In this document: piece after piece, positions 24,956 to 34,041 of the stretch
Layout: the number at the start of each line of letters is the position of its first letter
How positions within the stretch are numbered: position 1 is the first letter of the stretch
From: Bacteroidota bacterium
Lineage (GTDB): Bacteria > Bacteroidota > Ignavibacteria > Tepidaquicellales > Tepidaquicellaceae
Reading direction: 5' to 3'
NCBI GenBank assembly: GCA_018266895.1
Contig: JAFDZQ010000084.1
Location: forward strand, 1-34,041
Length of the DNA stretch: 34,041 nt
The notes under the pieces: model-generated
Database searches by the model: none
What the model was told of the DNA's origin: nothing
What the model saw: the letters and a program-made list of their open reading frames with translations, nothing else
Translations under genes and position numbers: made by a program

Positions 24956-25666
24956 TTAAAAAGTGTCATAAATCATATATACTCCTCCTAAAACAACCAA
25001 TACACCGCAAATGCGTTTTACATAAACGGTCGCTTTTGATTTTTCAGTCCAGTTAAGATATTGCTGAACTTTTTTGGTTAATGTTCCTGCAGCAACTATT
25101 ACTAAAATATGTCCTGTACCAAAAGCAAGAAGCAGCATAATTGCATACTGTAAATTTGTTTTCGCAACCTGAAACACAACTCCAAGAACAGGAGCCATAT
25201 AGGCAAATGTACACGGACCAAGTCCGATGCCGAAAAGAAGTCCGATTATCAAAGCTGCAAGCACGCCTTTTTGCTTAGTTGGTTTTATGCCTGCGCCATC
25301 GAAAGGGAGTTTTATAATATCCATTAAATAAAAACCAATAATAAAAAATACAGCCGCTACCAAATAGTTTCCTGCAAAACCGATATCACCAAGCAGCCTG
25401 CCGGCAATAGCAGTTATTAAACCAATCAAAGCGATAGTGATCAATATTCCCACACCAAAGACGAGTGAAATAAAAAATGTTTTTTTTAAAGTGATTTCTC
25501 CCCGGGAATTGATAAATCCGACAATCAAAGGAATACTTGAGAGATGACACGGGCTTAAAAGTACACTAACGATACCCCAGCCTAATGCTGCGAATACAGC
25601 GGTCGGAGAATTGCCCGATAATTCAGTACTCAGGAATTCAAAAATTTTATCCGTCATTTCATTCAT
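24956..25666 (-). CDS. ccdA: CcdA-like membrane thiol-disulfide electron carrier
   Basis: Inner-membrane protein of 236 aa with about six hydrophobic segments. The two redox cysteines of the CcdA/DsbD family are present: LLSPCHLSSIP (C40) and GLGPCTFAYMAP (C152). The family transfers reducing equivalents from cytoplasmic thioredoxin across the membrane to extracytoplasmic thiol proteins. It is the last gene of the arsenic operon and overlaps the thioredoxin-like lipoprotein gene by 8 nt, so that lipoprotein is its likely partner. A later in-frame ATG (25657) is an alternative start. Confidence 0.88.
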   Translation of the reverse strand: MNEMTDKIFEFLSTELSGNSPTAVFAALGWGIVSVLLSPCHLSSIPLIVGFINSRGEITLKKTFFISLVFGVGILITIALIGLITAIAGRLLGDIGFAGNYLVAAVFFIIGFYLMDIIKLPFDGAGIKPTKQKGVLAALIIGLLFGIGLGPCTFAYMAPVLGVVFQVAKTNLQYAIMLLLAFGTGHILVIVAAGTLTKKVQQYLNWTEKSKATVYVKRICGVLVVLGGVYMIYDTF

Positions 25667-26096
25667 ATAATTGAGGTAGGATTAGCCCCTGTGACTGTAA
25701 AAATTCATCTATATCTTTTTCAGGGTAAAATCCCTGATGACGCATGATTTCTTTTCCGTTAACATCAAGAAATACCTGGGTAGGTATTAAGTCAATTCCG
25801 AATTTTTTAGCCGGAGCATCATCCTTCCAGACATCGTGAAATGTTACTTTCACCTGTCCTTTATATTTTGTTTCGATTGATTTCATAATCGGCTGCATTT
25901 TTTTACAGGGAATGCAGTTAACGGAACCAAGTTCAACAAATTCTATTTTGAAATTATTAATAACTGAACTATCTTTTCCTGATGAAGTATTCTTACCTTC
26001 ACTTTTATTTTGCTCCTGAATATCGGATCTGTTGCACGCTGTTAATAATACCGTTAAAATGAAAATCAAATATACGGCAGATATTCTTGATCTCAT
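25659..26096 (-). CDS. Thioredoxin-like lipoprotein
   Basis: Exported 145-aa lipoprotein: positive start, hydrophobic core and LLTAC box with C21 as lipid site, a Ser/Lys/Asn-rich linker (22-48) and a thioredoxin fold (49-145). The active site is NCIPCKKM (C61, C64) and the cis-proline loop is IPTQVFLD. The linker should allow it to reach from the membrane. It starts 2 nt after the upstream small thioredoxin-like gene and overlaps ccdA, which would reduce it. Role inferred: reduces arsenical or protein thiols outside the cytoplasm. Confidence 0.82.
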   Translation of the reverse strand: MRSRISAVYLIFILTVLLTACNRSDIQEQNKSEGKNTSSGKDSSVINNFKIEFVELGSVNCIPCKKMQPIMKSIETKYKGQVKVTFHDVWKDDAPAKKFGIDLIPTQVFLDVNGKEIMRHQGFYPEKDIDEFLQSQGLILPQLYE

Positions 26097-26098
26097 TG

Positions 26099-26338
26099 TT
26101 ATAATTCTTCCTTTATCCAGTTTAAAATCTGTTCGTCTTTCAGAGTCAGACCGCTGGATTTTAGTTTTTCGTTTATTACCAGCCCCGGTGTTGCCAGTAT
26201 ACCATATCTCATCATATCCTGTATATCAGTTATTTTTTCAATTTCAGCGGGAATATTGTTGTTTTCAACTATTACTTTCACTTGTTGTTCCAGTTTCTTA
26301 CATCTTGAACAGCCTGTTCCGAGAATTTTTATCAGCAT
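26099..26338 (-). CDS. Small thioredoxin-like redox protein (TM0996/MTH895 type)
   Basis: A 79-aa cytoplasmic protein of the redox-active disulfide protein 2 family, compact thioredoxin/glutaredoxin hybrids. The active site is GTGCSRCKKLE (C10, C13). The cis-proline segment ATPGLVINEKLKSSG matches the consensus, and the full length is normal. It lies between the ArsF-like lipoprotein and thioredoxin lipoprotein genes with gaps of 6 and 2 nt. Such proteins often accompany ArsP-type permeases and thiol pathways; here it is a candidate cytoplasmic electron donor. Confidence 0.85.
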   Translation of the reverse strand: MLIKILGTGCSRCKKLEQQVKVIVENNNIPAEIEKITDIQDMMRYGILATPGLVINEKLKSSGLTLKDEQILNWIKEEL

Positions 26339-26344
26339 ATTTTT

Positions 26345-26761
26345 TTAATTTGAAATTATAAAATCACTAATTTCTCTGTCTGCATATTTCATGAATTTCT
26401 CTTTATCTTCAGTATAAGACCATACTGAGTCCAGGTTTTTCCATTTGTTATTTTTCAGACTCCGGATAATGACAGAGCTGAATTTTAAATCAAAATCTTT
26501 TTTAAAGTGTTCATTTTCGGTTTCATCAATGTTGATTTCTTTAAATCGGAATCCTTCTCTTGCATATTTAGTCTCAACTATCTCTTTAATATAATTCTCC
26601 AGATTTATACAGCTCTCACACCGCGCTGTCGGATGAAAATAATATGCAATATATTTATCACCCGGATTTTTCTTAGTGCTTGCATCTTCTGTTTTTCCGC
26701 AACCGGCAATAATGGGAATAAGTAAAGCAAGAGTAAGAAATATTATACTGTTGGTTTTCAT
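26345..26761 (-). CDS. ArsF-like redox lipoprotein
   Basis: A 138-aa lipoprotein: signal with IIAGC box (C21), then a thioredoxin-like domain starting YIAYYFHPTARCESCINLE, with the cysteine pair C48/C51 in a CESC motif. This matches the family annotated as nitrophenyl-compound nitroreductase subunit ArsF, which I know from arsenic clusters; its biochemical role is not well defined. It lies 9 nt after acr3 and 6 nt before the small thioredoxin, in the middle of the operon. Probably a redox partner of CcdA. Confidence 0.75.
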   Translation of the reverse strand: MKTNSIIFLTLALLIPIIAGCGKTEDASTKKNPGDKYIAYYFHPTARCESCINLENYIKEIVETKYAREGFRFKEINIDETENEHFKKDFDLKFSSVIIRSLKNNKWKNLDSVWSYTEDKEKFMKYADREISDFIISN

Positions 26762-26770
26762 ACAAATAAT

Positions 26771-27853
26771 TTACGGACATAAATCCGGGTATTTTACATT
26801 ATCTTCTTCGTTTGATTTAAAATATTTTTTCTGAAACCACAATGATACATTTACAAGACTTATAAGCACAGGAACTTCTACAAGCGGACCTATGACAGCC
26901 GCAAATGCTTCACCGGAATTTATCCCGAAAACAGCAACAGCAACTGCAATAGCGAGTTCAAAATTATTGCTTGCGGCAGTAAATGAGAGTGTCGCGGTCT
27001 TTGAATAATCCGCTCCTATTTTCTTTCCCATTAAAAAGGAAACAAAAAACATAATTAAAAAATATAAGATTAACGGTATTGCAATCCTTATAACATCAAA
27101 CGGTATTTTTATAATCATTTCGCCCTTCAGTGAAAACATTACAAAGATTGTAAAAAGCAGGGCTATCAGAGTAACAGGACTGATCCTGGGAATAAATTTT
27201 GTGTGATACCATTCTTTACCTTTTAATTTTACTAATATGAGTCTTGTAACAGCACCGGCAATGAAAGGAATACCAAGATAGATAAATACACTTTCTGCTA
27301 TTTGTCCTATTGTAATATTAACCGAGAAGCCTGTTAATCCGAATAATGGCGGCAATACCGTAATGAATACGTAAGCATAAACAGAAAAGAATAAAACCTG
27401 GAATATTGAATTGAAAGCAACCAGACCTGCTGCATATTCGGTATCGCCTTTGGCAAGTTCATTCCATACGATAACCATTGCAATGCATCTTGCAAGCCCG
27501 ATCAATATTAATCCTGTCATATAATGCGGATCGCCCTGAAGAAACAAAATCGCAAGAAAGAACATTAATACAGGACCGATAATCCAGTTCTGAACAAGGG
27601 ATAAGGAGAGAACTTTGAAATTCCTGAATACTTCGCCTAAATCTTCATACCTGACCTTAGCCAGCGGAGGATACATCATCAGAATCAAACCTGCTGCAAT
27701 CGGAATGTTGGTTGTCCCCGATTGAAATTCATTCCAGAAACCGGTTATACCGGGAAAAAAATAACCGGTAATGACAGCTACAAACATTGCGGTAAATATC
27801 CAAAGAGTCAGATACCTGTCTAAAAAAGAAAGTTTTTTTGTAATCTTTTCCAT
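26771..27853 (-). CDS. acr3: ACR3-family arsenite efflux transporter
   Basis: Inner-membrane As(III) extrusion permease of 360 aa with about ten hydrophobic segments. Diagnostic residues are the conserved cysteine in [15 protein letters not shown] (C123) and the glutamate in [14 protein letters not shown], both essential in characterised ACR3 proteins, plus the [12 protein letters not shown] motif. It exports arsenite driven by the proton gradient. It follows the ArsP-like gene by one base. It is the central detoxification transporter of the operon. Confidence 0.93.
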
Positions 27854-27854
27854 A

Positions 27855-28877
27855 CTAATAAATAATATTAAATAAGTAACCGACTGTTACAATGCCCGTT
27901 CCCACTACACCGATGAAAACACAAATCAGAGGGAGCTTTAAAACTTTTTTTAGAATTATCATCTCGGGAAGCGAAAGTCCTATTACAGACATCATAAATG
28001 CAAGAGAAGTCCCGAGTGATGCGCCTTTTTCAATGAGGGACTGGACTACAGGAATAATTCCTGCAGCATTTGAGTAAAGTGGAATTCCGATTAACACCGA
28101 TAAAGGTACAGACCACCAGACATCCTTTCCCATTATGCCGGCCATAAAATTCTCGGGAACATATCCGTGAACGCCGGCTCCTACAGCTATGCCAATTACT
28201 ACATACAGCCAGACTTTTGAAACTATATCTTTCACAGCCATAACTCCGTAATCAATCCTGGAGGCAAAATTAATTTTTTCTTCACCGGCATTGTTGCCTG
28301 CGGATTTTATTTCATATACCCATGGTTCTACAAATCGTTCAAGTTTTAATCTTCCGATGATCCATCCGGCGGCAATCGCAATGAGAAGTCCGGTTAAAAT
28401 GTATATCACAGCCGTCTTCCAGCCGAACAGACCGAAAAGTAATATTACAGCGACTTCATTGATCATCGGAGCTGCAATAAGAAAAGAGAAAGTAACGCCC
28501 AGCGGAATTCTGGCTTCAACAAACCCGAGAAATAAAGGAATTGCAGAGCATGAACAAAAAGGAGTAACAATTCCTAACAGACTTGCCATTATGTTACCGG
28601 CAAAAAGCGGTTTGCCTTCAAGCGCCTTTCTTGTTTTTTCAGGCGAGAAATAAGAGCGGATAATGCCCACCGTAAATACAATTACAGACAGAAGAATTAA
28701 AACTTTTATTACCTCATAGATAAAAAAATGAATGGCTGAAGTGAAAAGTGAATTTGGGTCTAAACTGAGCAGATCGTAAACAAGAACATTTATATTCCCG
28801 TCAAGATGAAAATACACGCCAAACAATACAGGAAAGATAATAAGATAATAATAGGCTTTGTAGTTTTTTTCTTCCAT
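27855..28877 (-). CDS. arsP: ArsP-type permease (DUF318 family)
   Basis: Polytopic membrane protein of 340 aa, about eight to ten hydrophobic segments, with the family signature [12 protein letters not shown] (cysteines C108 and C110) and an [16 protein letters not shown] loop in the second half. ArsP members characterised elsewhere export trivalent organoarsenicals, and wider DUF318 members are uncharacterised permeases. Its ATG overlaps the stop of the small thioredoxin-like gene by one base (TAATG), indicating coupled translation. The substrate here is inferred from the ars context. Confidence 0.82.
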
Positions 28878-29092
28878 TATCTGTCTTTCTCCCCAAGTTT
28901 TCCGCTTAACGTCACTATATTGTTTATTGTTAATGCAGGAGTGATTATTGTTCCGGTATTATTAACTTTCTTTATACCGTTGAACTTCTGCAGGTCAGCG
29001 GTAATATTATTTTCCGCTGTTACATTCACATATAATTTTTCAAGATCACTCCGCCGCTTACAACCCTGACTTAAAACCCTGATGTTTATCAT
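28877..29092 (-). CDS. Degenerate small thioredoxin-like protein lacking the second cysteine
   Basis: A 71-aa homologue of the TM0996-type protein at 26099-26338, as shown by aligning GC(x)xx...LE and the cis-proline segment TPALTINN. The active site reads GCKRRSDLE, so the first cysteine (C11) is kept while the second is replaced by arginine (R14, codon CGG). The C-terminal helix present in the paralogue is also shortened. It is translationally coupled to the permease. It may be a monothiol, an arsenic-binding chaperone, or a decaying copy; the clean frame and coupling argue that it is still translated. Confidence 0.65.
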   Translation of the reverse strand: MINIRVLSQGCKRRSDLEKLYVNVTAENNITADLQKFNGIKKVNNTGTIITPALTINNIVTLSGKLGEKDR

Positions 29093-29127
29093 GGTTAGGC
29101 ATTAAAATTTTATTTCATTTACCTGTT

Positions 29128-29136
29128 TAACGAAAT
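29128..29136 (-). promoter_or_regulatory. Second TAACGAAAT copy, between arsR and the next gene
   Basis: The 53-bp gap between arsR and the CxxC-less thioredoxin-like gene contains TAACGAAAT, identical to 29509-29517. It could be a second operator controlling an internal promoter. The gap is the longest in the operon, all others being 9 nt or less. Confidence 0.25.
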
Positions 29137-29145
29137 ACAAACTAA

Positions 29146-29499
29146 TTATTTTCTGCAAAGAACATTCCTGTCGACGCATTCAATTTCTTTTTTGTCACTC
29201 TCTATAAGAATGTCATCTTCTAACTGCAATTGAACAAAGAGAAGCGCATTTGAAACTCTGTTGTCTTTTGGATCCGGATTAATTTTATAATTTATCCATT
29301 TTTTGTCTTTTTCATCAGTTATTAAGCCGGCATCACGTAGAATACTGAGATGCTTTGAAACAGTTGACGCAGCAAGATTAAGAACTGCAGTTATCTCACA
29401 TACGCAAAGAGACTTTCGCTGAAGCATTTTCAGAATGCGGAGACGGCTTTTATCGGATAGAGCTTTAAATATTATTTCGTACTTGTCTAATGTTTTCAC
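29146..29499 (-). CDS. arsR: ArsR-family arsenic-responsive repressor
   Basis: A winged-helix repressor of 117 aa that would release DNA on binding As(III). The helix-turn-helix is visible as LAASTVSKHLSILRDAGLI, and the metalloid-binding thiols are in SLCVCEI (C32, C34), as in the classical CxC sites. Two further cysteines near the end (C108, C115) could complete a three-thiol site. It starts at GTG (29499), and a perfect 6-bp inverted repeat, TTTCAC-TTC-GTGAAA, spans the start codon. First gene of the eight-gene operon. Confidence 0.9.
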   Translation of the reverse strand: MKTLDKYEIIFKALSDKSRLRILKMLQRKSLCVCEITAVLNLAASTVSKHLSILRDAGLITDEKDKKWINYKINPDPKDNRVSNALLFVQLQLEDDILIESDKKEIECVDRNVLCRK

Positions 29500-29517: not shown

Positions 29518-29554
29518 GAAAATGTTAAATCAATGTAATCTGACAGGATAAAAT

Positions 29555-29674
29555 TCATTTAAACAACAGATGTGCCTGGTCAATCTTGCTGTTACCACTG
29601 ACAGCAAGAATTTTTTTGCCTGAGAATTGCTGAACTTCTTCTTTTAAAAGAATAATTGACGGACCTTCGGGCAT
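29555..29674 (-). pseudogene. 5' fragment of an Fpg/Nei-family DNA glycosylase gene
   Basis: An open frame of 39 codons begins with ATG at 29674, four bases after the ku stop, and ends with TGA at 29555-29557. Its first residues, MPEGPSIILLKEEVQQF and then SGKKILAVSGNSKID, match the beginning of Fpg/Nei glycosylases, including the catalytic N-terminal Pro2-Glu3 pair. Family members are about 250-290 aa, so nearly everything including the H2TH and zinc-finger regions is missing. I find no continuation in other frames before arsR. It is therefore a remnant cut off at the boundary with the arsenic operon. The close spacing suggests it once followed ku in one transcript. Confidence 0.75.
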
Positions 29675-29678
29675 TTTA

Positions 29679-30455
29679 CTAAGCTGCTTTACTTTTTTTA
29701 GAACTTAAACTTGCTTTGAGCATATCCATTAAATTGTCACCTTGCTTTTGAACTGTTTTCGTTTTCGGAATTGATATTTTTTTACCTTTTGATTTCTCTT
29801 TAATAATTTTTAAAAGTTTGGAAGTATAAGTGTCCTTGTATTTTGCAATATTGAATTTTTCTGTAAGCTGGTTAACTAATTTATTCGCCATATCCATTTC
29901 TTTCGATTTAGTTTTTGAAACGGGCGGTAATTTTAATTCGGAAGGATCTCTTAACTCCTGTGAAAAACGAATACGGTTTAAAACAATTACGTTTTTGTAC
30001 GGCTTGAGAATGGCTAATCCTTCCTTATTCTTTAACACAAATGATGTAACCCCGACTTTACCTGATAATTGTAAAGCGTCACGCAGCAAAGCATAAGCCT
30101 TCATTGCCGATTTTTCGGGTTCGAGATAGTAGGGCTGTTCATAATAAAGACTGTCAATTTCCTGTTCATTGACAAAATTTATAATTTCAATCGTTTTGGT
30201 TTTTACGGCATCCGCAGCCTCAAAATCTTCTTCTTCTAAAATTACATATCCTTTTTCCAGCTTATATCCTTTCACAATATTTTCATAAGCTACTTCTTTT
30301 CCGGTGGATTCATTTACACGTTTAAATTTAATATTAGAATGATCTTTGCTGTCAAGCATATCCAGGTCAAGAGAACTTTCCTGAACTGCCGGGAATAATT
30401 TTACCGGGATATTAATTAACCCGAAACTGATTGTTCCTGTCCAAATTGAGTGCAT
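29679..30455 (-). CDS. ku: Ku, bacterial non-homologous end-joining protein
   Basis: A 258-aa DNA end-binding protein that forms a ring-shaped homodimer on broken ends and recruits LigD. Recognised from the opening [21 protein letters not shown], the central [45 protein letters not shown] and ELRDPSEL segments, all hallmarks of bacterial Ku. The C-terminal tail (about 215-258) is lysine-rich, as is usual for contacts with DNA and LigD. It lies 243 bp downstream of ligD on the same strand. The spacer is AT-rich, and I see no clear promoter in it. Confidence 0.95.
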
Positions 30456-30698: not shown

Positions 30699-33404
30699 TT
30701 ATTGCTTATTAAATTGTTTAATTACTATTTCTAAATTAATTCCTTTGCCAAGAACCGGTTTAAAAATATCGCCTTCGCTTTTAATTCTGTCTAGAGAATT
30801 ATAAATAGTGAAATCACTCATATTTAAACCTTTTTTTACTTCGTCCCAATGCAAAGGCATGGAAACAGTTGCGCCGGGTTTTGGTCGTAAGGAATAAGGT
30901 GCCGCAATTGTCGCCTGCGGACGATTCTGCAGAAAGTCGATATACATTTTTCCTTTGCGGGCTTTGACAATGCGCTCAATACTTGTATAATTTGGTAATT
31001 CACGTTGTACTAACGTTGCAATAATCCGTGCAAATTCTTTTGATTGATCATAAGTATATTTTGCCCGAAGCGGAATGTAAATATGTATGCCTGTCGAGCC
31101 GCTTGTTTTTGGATATGATTTAACCCCCATGCTTTCCAGAATATCCCTTGTCACTTTTGCCGCTTCTATAACCTGATTGAAAGTATTTTCCGCAGGATCC
31201 AGGTCTATGATGCACCAGTCGGGATAATCTTCTGTTTCCGCTTTACTGTGCCAGGGATTCATTTCAATACAACCTAATGTTGCCATGTATAAAAGGCTTG
31301 CTTCGTCTTTCACAACTAAATATTTTCTTACACGGTTGTCAGAAGGGCTTTTATATTCAAATGTTTCAATCCAATCAGGAGCTGTGTCTGTTACATCTTT
31401 AAAATAAAAACTTTCACCGTTGATGCCGTCAGGATGCCGGTTCATGGACTGAGGTCTGTCTTTCAGATATGGAAGAATGTAAGGAGCAACCTGGTAATAA
31501 TAGTTTAGCATATCACGTTTCGTGATTTTTTCCTTTGGCCAGTATATTTTATTCAGGTTATTGAATTTTATTTCATGACCGCTGATTTTACGGACTTGTG
31601 TGTCATCGGATGGATTCAAAAAAGTTTTGAGGTCTTTCTTTCCTGCAGGTTTTATTATGGAATCTGACTGAGCTTTTTTCTTTGAAGTGATTTTTTTTGA
31701 GTCAACTGCTATTTCTCTTGTCACATCTTTTGCTTTTTTGTCAATGCGCATGGCTTCAAAAGATGGATGACGCATAATACCGTCTGCTGTCATTTCTGTA
31801 TAACTTACTTCGCAAACCAGTTCAGGTTTCATCCAAACTGCCGTTGCATGAGGATCCGGACGAAATCGTGAGGGTTTATTTATATCAGGCAATTCTGTGA
31901 AAGGAGAAGATTTTGTAATGTAACTTTGGAATTGTTTCAGCATTTCTTTTTGCTGCTTATTGCTAAAACCCGTTCCTGCTTTACCTGTGTATATTAATTT
32001 GCCTTTTTCAAAAACACCAAGCAGTAAGGAACTGAAGAATTTGGATGAATCATCGTTCTTAGTATATCCGCCAATTACCATTTCCTGTCTTTTGTCAGCT
32101 TTTATTTTCAGCCATTCTCCGGAACGGATCCCGGGTGAATATGTACTGTCGGATTTTTTTGCAATGATGCCTTCAAGCCCCATTTTTTTTGCTGCTTCAA
32201 AAAATTCAATTCCGCTTACTTTAAAATTTTCACTAAACCTGATGATGTTACTTTCAGGAATCATTTGTTTTAAAACTATTCTTCTTTCTGATAAAGGAAT
32301 TTGCATCAGGTCTTTTCCGTTCAGCCAAAGAATATCAAACACATAATAATTTAATTCTCCTTCGGCTTCACTCCTCCAGTTTTGCAATGCGCCAAAATTT
32401 GATTTGCCGTTTTCATCAGGCACTACCACTTCCCCGTCTATCACGGCATTTATATTCCAGTCCTGAACCGCTTTGTGAACGGGATAAAATTTGTTGTTAA
32501 ACGATTTATCGTTGCGGGATTTTAATTCGACTTTGCTTTTTTTGCAAAATGCTAAAGTCCTGTAGCCGTCCCATTTTATTTCGAACTGCCATGCTTCATT
32601 ATCAAAAGGTTTATCAACAAGTGTTGCAAGCATTGGTGATAATTTAGAAGGAAATTTTGCGCGTCTGCCTTTACTTATAATTTTATTGGTAGAAATTTTT
32701 TTTTCTGACTCTGTTTCTTTTTTATTTTTTGCGGTAGCTGTCTTTACATCATCGCGCTTGTTCAGTGCAAGTTCTTTTTTACTTTTTGCTTTCGATTCCT
32801 TTACCCGTTTTGCTCCGTAAAAACCGGTTGTGGTTTTTTCCAGCTGCGCTAATGTTTTTTTTGAAATGACTGATTTATCTTTCAGGGTTATATCCTTTTT
32901 TGAAACATACTTGTCTTTTATCTTAAACAGCAGCCATGCATTATCTCCCCGGCCACGTGTTTTTACAAGCGCATATTCACCTTTTAATTTTTTGCCGTGA
33001 AGTACAAAATGTAACTTACCCGAATAAATTCCCTTGAGTAATTCTTTCTCCAGTGTTTTTTTATCTTTCCCTGTAGCATCAGCAGGCTCATAATAACCTT
33101 CATCCCATACGATAACCGTACCGGCACCATAACCGCCAGGAATTATTCCTTCAAAATTCCTGTAATCGTACGGATGGTCTTCCACCATCATGGCAAGCCG
33201 CTTTACATCAGGATCGGCAGATGGTCCTTTAGGCACCGCCCAGCTCTTAAGCACACCTTCCATTTCCAAACGGAAATCATAATGCAGATGCGAAGCATTG
33301 TGTTTCTGAATTACAAAACGCAGCTTATCAGTGTCAGCATTGCCGCCGATAGGTTCCGGGGTTTCTTTAAAATTTCTTTTTGCTTTGTATTTGGTTAATG
33401 CCAT
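30699..33404 (-). CDS. ligD: ATP-dependent DNA ligase D (phosphoesterase-ligase-polymerase)
   Basis: Multifunctional NHEJ enzyme of 901 aa with domain order PE-Lig-Pol, as in Pseudomonas-type LigD. Residues about 15-165 form the 3'-phosphoesterase (SHLHYDFRLEMEGVLKSWAV, DHPYDYRNFEG and GGYGAGTVIVWD). A Lys/Glu-rich linker spans about 185-245. The ligase core (about 255-560) has the adenylated lysine K277 in EIKWDGYRT, followed by IDGEVV and the EGIIAKK motif. The polymerase (about 605-895) has SFYFKDV, the catalytic DLDP and the conserved GSTGIHIYIPL. I choose the ATG at 33404 (MALTKYKAKR) rather than the TTG five codons upstream because the family typically begins this way. Confidence 0.95.
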   Translation of the reverse strand: MALTKYKAKRNFKETPEPIGGNADTDKLRFVIQKHNASHLHYDFRLEMEGVLKSWAVPKGPSADPDVKRLAMMVEDHPYDYRNFEGIIPGGYGAGTVIVWDEGYYEPADATGKDKKTLEKELLKGIYSGKLHFVLHGKKLKGEYALVKTRGRGDNAWLLFKIKDKYVSKKDITLKDKSVISKKTLAQLEKTTTGFYGAKRVKESKAKSKKELALNKRDDVKTATAKNKKETESEKKISTNKIISKGRRAKFPSKLSPMLATLVDKPFDNEAWQFEIKWDGYRTLAFCKKSKVELKSRNDKSFNNKFYPVHKAVQDWNINAVIDGEVVVPDENGKSNFGALQNWRSEAEGELNYYVFDILWLNGKDLMQIPLSERRIVLKQMIPESNIIRFSENFKVSGIEFFEAAKKMGLEGIIAKKSDSTYSPGIRSGEWLKIKADKRQEMVIGGYTKNDDSSKFFSSLLLGVFEKGKLIYTGKAGTGFSNKQQKEMLKQFQSYITKSSPFTELPDINKPSRFRPDPHATAVWMKPELVCEVSYTEMTADGIMRHPSFEAMRIDKKAKDVTREIAVDSKKITSKKKAQSDSIIKPAGKKDLKTFLNPSDDTQVRKISGHEIKFNNLNKIYWPKEKITKRDMLNYYYQVAPYILPYLKDRPQSMNRHPDGINGESFYFKDVTDTAPDWIETFEYKSPSDNRVRKYLVVKDEASLLYMATLGCIEMNPWHSKAETEDYPDWCIIDLDPAENTFNQVIEAAKVTRDILESMGVKSYPKTSGSTGIHIYIPLRAKYTYDQSKEFARIIATLVQRELPNYTSIERIVKARKGKMYIDFLQNRPQATIAAPYSLRPKPGATVSMPLHWDEVKKGLNMSDFTIYNSLDRIKSEGDIFKPVLGKGINLEIVIKQFNKQ

Positions 33405-33556: not shown

Positions 33557-33804
33557 CTATTTTTTATGTTTTTATTTCAAAATCCAGACTCATTGGTTCG
33601 TTTTAACATAGGAAGTTTTTCAAATTCTAAATTTTATGACATTTCTTGTCAATGATGTCAAGAGATCATATTCAAAAATAAAAATTTATATACTATTGCT
33701 TAAAACTTTGCCGTCCAAAATATTTTTGAATATATAATTTTCATTTGTTTTTTAAATGTAATTCAAATTTAATTATTCTTTATTAAAACAAACCCGCCTG
33801 TGAG

Positions 33805-33911
33805 AAATTGCCGTTAAGAAATTCTGAGCAATTGCGTTAAGCAAAAATTTCTGTTCGAGCCGAAGGCGAGTTAAATTTTTGCAGCAATTGCGAAAGAATT
33901 TCAGGCAATTT
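33805..33911. repeat. Large imperfect palindrome
   Basis: The left arm 33805-33850 (from AAATTGCC through GAAATTCT and CAATTGC to GCAAAAATTT) pairs with the right arm 33873-33911 (AAATTTTTGC, GCAATTG, AGAATTTC, GGCAATTT) around a 22-nt loop containing GAGCCGAAGGCGAG. Four matching blocks are interrupted by small unpaired GTTAA-type bulges. The regular spacing of pairs suggests a structured extragenic repeat or small nonautonomous element, not chance. Confidence 0.75.
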
Positions 33912-33983
33912 ATCACCAGCCAACCTCGCCGGTATGCCTCGCCGAAGGCGGGCTAGGCGGGCGGGCGATTTTTCTTTGGTTCT

Positions 33984-34041
33984 GGGGCTGTCCCAAAAGT
34001 ATAGATGGAGTTAAATTGGAAATATAAAAAGTTGATTTACA
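33984..34041 (+). mobile_element. Possible terminal inverted repeat of an insertion sequence, cut by the window edge
   Basis: The sequence GGGGCTGTCCCAAAAGT at 33984-34000 resembles terminal repeats of DDE-transposase insertion sequences found in this group of bacteria. It interrupts a CTTTGGTTCT tract that, from memory, usually continues differently in similar extragenic repeats. No transposase is visible because the window ends 41 bp later. Confidence 0.3.

Follow-up and report, generated by a model that had tools for sequence, protein, structure and literature searches.

The locus

The window, by which we mean the whole 34,041-nucleotide stretch of DNA that was analysed, brings together an ars operon and a ligD-ku pair of NHEJ genes, all on the minus strand, with a short frame between them. 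The features are listed below in window coordinates.

24956..29092, minus strand: rest of the ars operon, with genes for a Thioredoxin_3 protein, an ArsP_1 permease, ACR3 (SBF), a 138-aa protein, a second Thioredoxin_3 protein, a thioredoxin and a DsbD_TM protein (Pfam; similar gene set in the host family)
29146..29499, minus strand: arsR, which opens the resident ars operon (PF01022, NF033788)
29525..29557, no strand: junction between the nei remnant and the ars control region, confined to about 33 bp at most; nei homology ends at about 29558, and the operator-like sequence TTTCGTTA, common to the arsR loci of the family, starts at about 29525
29555..29557, minus strand: TGA stop made at or just beyond the break, where nei codon homology runs out (about codon 39)
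29558..29674, minus strand: pseudogene made up of the first 39 codons of a nei-type DNA glycosylase gene, with 77-84% identity to the ku-adjacent nei of three related loci (L004, L005 and L044) at an equal offset from the ku stop
29679..30455, minus strand: ku (PF02735, TIGR02772)
30699..33404, minus strand: ligD, encoding phosphoesterase, ligase and polymerase (PF13298, PF01068, PF04679, PF21686)
33780..34041, no strand: host multi-copy repeat on the other flank of the cassette, at the contig end

The short frame runs on the minus strand from an ATG at 29674 to a TGA at 29557-29555 and encodes 39 residues (MPEGPSIILLKEEVQQFSGKKILAVSGNSKIDQAHLLFK), and the plus strand is closed at 29555-29674, with no open reading frame. 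The ku stop codon (TAG, 29681-29679) is followed by four bases (TAAA) and then by the ATG of the remnant. A preliminary description had placed a 39-codon frame four bases past ku, ending just before the arsR control region, and both statements hold, the one correction being its minus-strand orientation: the frame is real, and arsR starts 55 nt further downstream, at 29499.

The ars operon (24956-29499) includes two Thioredoxin_3 proteins and a 138-aa protein without assigned family. It has homologues in eight members of the host family (80-90% identity for ACR3 and 61-73% for ArsR), and in most family ars loci a palindrome, TTTCGTTAnnTAACGAAA, is found at the arsR start, of which the window carries an imperfect version; by its sequence, this palindrome would be an ArsR operator-like element. 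At the opposite end of the contig, the repeat at 33780-34041 matches its own genome at about 50 places, over varying lengths and in many cases at contig ends, and it ends near an IS-like GGCTGTCCCAAAAG stretch.

Identity of the 39-codon frame

A whole Nei/NEIL2-like Fpg/Nei glycosylase has about 240 aa, and the frame matches its N-terminal sixth, from nei codon 1 to about codon 39, where the match stops. The N-terminal MPEGP that marks Fpg/Nei ancestry is there, with both Pro2 and Glu3. A tblastn search with the 214-aa nei of L004 reaches the window with an E-value of about 1e-16, and a 60-residue query from the start of an intact Nei gets 54 bits in the window, where none of 100 shuffled windows exceeds 22 bits, so that the similarity to Nei N-termini is far above chance. 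Pfam and NCBIfam searches with the 39 residues by themselves gave no match, because they are too short. Similar frames at an equal offset after ku were recovered in 5 other loci by protein comparison, and the earlier view of a truncated Fpg/Nei gene that keeps the catalytic Pro-Glu pair is thus borne out by the residues, by both similarity tests and by ku-adjacent homologues.

What a working enzyme would need beyond this point is missing. The N-terminal domain (PF01149) is incomplete, with 39 codons and no Pfam match; the H2TH domain (PF06831) is absent from the window and, above the cut-off, from the host's own genome; and the C-terminal zinc finger is lacking, as the window copy goes no further than about codon 39, a Cys-rich C-terminus being seen in intact Nei relatives. 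With all three incomplete or gone, the remnant, judged from its sequence, cannot act as a glycosylase. The missing 3' part was sought in the window and elsewhere in the host genome, as the preliminary description had proposed, and was not found, nor was a second nei or any other Fpg/Nei or H2TH gene above the cut-off in that genome. The 39-codon frame is in itself nothing out of the ordinary, a pseudogene remnant lying at a junction left by horizontal transfer.

nei beside ku in related cassettes

Genome contigs yielded 57 loci with a relative of the window Ku, and the clade that holds the window copy comprises nine cassettes (the window, L002-L008 and L044). In six of these nine (the window, L004, L005, L044, L007 and L008), nei starts right after ku: a frame like the 39 residues is found at the equal offset in L004 (84%) and in L005 and L044 (77% each), and L007 and L008 have decayed copies. 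The longest ku-adjacent copy is that of L004 (Bacteroidetes MAG 336R_metabat_52), which has Fapy_DNA_glyco (PF01149) and H2TH (PF06831) domains and whose nearest solved structures by sequence are NEIL2-type glycosylases. It occupies the same place after ku and is 84% identical to the window frame over 37 residues, but, unlike the window copy, it keeps 214 aa with the catalytic and H2TH domains before a frameshift ahead of the zinc finger, and the ku beside it has a nonsense codon. The other three cassettes, L002, L003 and L006, are without nei; in L002 and L003, nothing but the stretch where ku stops and nei begins is retained.

All six ku-adjacent copies are broken, and at differing places. 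The window copy is truncated at about codon 39, an A-run carries the frameshift of L004, and in L005 a frameshift at about codons 76-86 is followed by divergent sequence. Frameshifts lie at about 147 and 174 in L044, L007 combines frameshifts with an internal deletion, and L008 is frameshifted several times and truncated at its end. The comparison suggested at the outset, with intact Fpg/Nei genes straight after ku in relatives, came out negative, as no intact nei was found next to ku in any relative examined; the family of L004 has no intact ku-nei pair either, its single extra ku (L148) being without nei. Broken copies make up 6/6 of the ku-linked nei genes vs 1/30 of the unlinked ones (Fisher p ~4e-6, a guide only, as the test ignores shared ancestry and metagenome assembly error). 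The decay is not purely an assembly effect, because L007 comes from an isolate. Entire cassettes decay in some hosts, since ku has an internal stop in L004 (4506-5282) and a frameshift in L044 (411-1153), and ligD is split in L008 (2157-4743). With the caveats that attach to metagenome assemblies, we find it mildly interesting that nei beside ku appears to have been lost in parallel, the window junction being one among several such losses.

The remnant and its relatives carry signatures of descent from a protein gene under purifying selection (dN/dS ~0.1-0.2): the ratio is about 0.19 between the window and L004 over 37 codons (dN 0.085, dS 0.45) and 0.08-0.13 for longer nei pairs (dN and dS of 0.093/0.74 for L005/L044 and 0.20/2.5 for L004/L044), all estimates that rest on few codons. 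That ku, ligD and a base-excision glycosylase once formed a repair cluster, as had been proposed, is supported as a matter of ancestry by the nei found at the same spot after ku in five other cassettes.

The interval between ligD and ku varies among the relatives. It holds a topoisomerase IB gene in L008 (4899-5987) or a DUF6766 gene in L002 (826-1491) and L007 (4879-5544). In the window it measures only 243 bp, and its flanks resemble L002 DNA on either side of the DUF6766 gene, which suggests that this gene may have been deleted here; no protein-level DUF6766 remnant was found between the window ligD and ku.

Intact nei genes and the host lineage

Intact nei homologues, of 243-251 aa, were found in Flavobacterium and in one host-family member (G007), with no ku within the flanks examined. 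These Bacteroidota Nei (PF01149 and PF06831; L158:3855-4610 in G007 and L159:3755-4486 in Flavobacterium circumlabens) share 62-63% identity with the N-terminus of the window frame over about 42 residues and the same MPEGPSI start, whereas the window copy lacks everything past about codon 39 and, unlike theirs, lies beside ku. As G007 alone among 30 genomes of the host and its relatives has an H2TH (Fpg/Nei) gene above the cut-off, the host lineage seems to live mostly without Fpg/Nei.

In the Flavobacterium loci L159 and L161, a conserved gene island has the order topoisomerase IB, DUF892, nei and DUF72. Neighbours common to the cassettes and to intact nei are topoisomerase IB, DUF892, DUF72, Mn-catalase, catalase and DUF6766; topoisomerase IB, for instance, sits between ligD and ku in L008 and upstream of nei in Flavobacterium. 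Such genes seem to be interchangeable components of stress-resistance islands, of which the ku-nei adjacency would be one combination.

A probable foreign cassette at a resident ars operon

The two sides of the junction have different affinities. The window Ku is 83-88% identical to the Ku of L002-L008, whose source records are Chitinophagaceae, Bacteroidales, Flavobacterium and unplaced Bacteroidetes, vs about 51% to the Ku of two other host-family members, and LigD is 79-89% identical within the clade vs 45-59% to the host family and order. The Ku tree groups the window with L002-L008 and L044 (support 95/90) and places the Ku of the host family far away. Because ku and ligD are phylogenetically misplaced while the ars genes are typical of the host family, the LigD-Ku cassette is most likely the foreign part of the locus. 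The transfer from donor to host was probably one across classes, a distance drawn from kinship labels (Flavobacterium-like genomes belong to the same phylum, not to the same class) and gene order, not from names. The cassette truly lies in the host genome, because the contig also carries a DAHP synthase, a core gene of the host family (84% to G002 and 81% to the genus-mate G001), and host repeats at its far end. On its outer side, the cassette is truncated by the contig end, and a search of plasmids and viral contigs found no mobile carrier of this ku.

In our view, the frame is very likely the dead 5' fragment of nei, which stood last in a ligD-ku-nei cassette acquired by horizontal transfer and lost its 3' part beside the resident ars operon. 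This reading starts from what the comparisons give directly, namely the identity and position of the fragment, the absence of the rest, the foreign affinity of ku and ligD and the family affinity of ars; the order of events and the mechanism of the join we infer as follows. A ligD-ku-nei cassette, with nei last, would have arrived horizontally from other Bacteroidota; it would have been joined to the host's resident ars operon, by insertion or by a later rearrangement; and all of nei past about codon 39 would have been lost, at most about 33 bp from the arsR control region. The joint shows neither a target duplication nor an IS, the direct and inverted repeats that flank the cassette are only short, chance-like ones, and GC content gives no contrast.

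The preliminary description had it that the rest of the glycosylase was replaced by the arsenic operon. A junction does lie at the remnant, between 29558 and about 29525, and the loss most likely took place at the ars joint; the direction is probably the reverse. A history in which a complete ligD-ku-nei locus was resident and lost the remainder of nei to an arriving arsenic operon would fit a break exactly at the ars control region, and identity to some family members is indeed higher for ACR3 (90% to G021, 89% to G009) than for the core gene DAHP synthase (75% to G009), so that ars may have moved within the family. We nevertheless consider this history unlikely, since ars genes occur across the host family, unlike the NHEJ cassette, the misplaced genes are ku and ligD, and a search of the window found no nei on the far side of the ars operon. 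The cassette is thus the likeliest newcomer, with Ku and LigD foreign, ars shared with the family, and a core gene and a host repeat on the contig. A misjoin of a ku contig to an ars contig in the metagenome assembly is very improbable: the host assembly is fragmented (136 contigs) and the cassette sits at a contig end, but the joint has no long repeat to mislead an assembler, host-type sequence flanks the cassette on both sides, and nei is lost in related cassettes as well. Finally, a functional small protein, such as a Ku-coupled peptide, is hardly credible despite the kept ATG, the close spacing to ku and the lack of an in-frame stop before codon 40, as none of the relatives encodes a protein of equal length that could stand for a conserved separate gene, descent from the full gene accounts for the constraint and almost the whole fold is missing.

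NHEJ and base excision

Bacterial NHEJ has been gained and lost horizontally (PMC7719229), and the operonic Ku and LigD systems described there, with horizontal spread and ligD and ku on one strand, resemble the window cassette. The word glycosylase occurs 0 times in that survey, whereas the window cassette has a nei remnant, and none of the papers found in our literature search describes a ku-nei cluster. In Bacillus subtilis, Ku and LigD have AP/dRP lyase activity, which links them to base excision repair (PMC4245934, PMC4770248) and could give a functional reason for a glycosylase near ku; in the passages of these two papers that were consulted, the link is biochemical only, with no gene cluster described.

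We would only tentatively suggest, and think it rather doubtful, that a mobile ligD-ku-nei cassette of Bacteroidota once coupled Nei to NHEJ and that nei was then lost in parallel because it was useless or harmful in its recipients, for example through clustered lesions turned into double-strand breaks. Processing of clustered lesions can yield such breaks (reviewed in PMC3112496), and they are a possible reason for the loss of nei; neutral loss after transfer is a simpler one.

The junction gives a direction to one horizontal transfer of NHEJ genes within the Bacteroidota and belongs to a set of loci in which a base-excision glycosylase sat beside ku repeatedly and decayed repeatedly. If an intact ku-nei pair exists, the proposed coupling of NHEJ to base excision would become testable.
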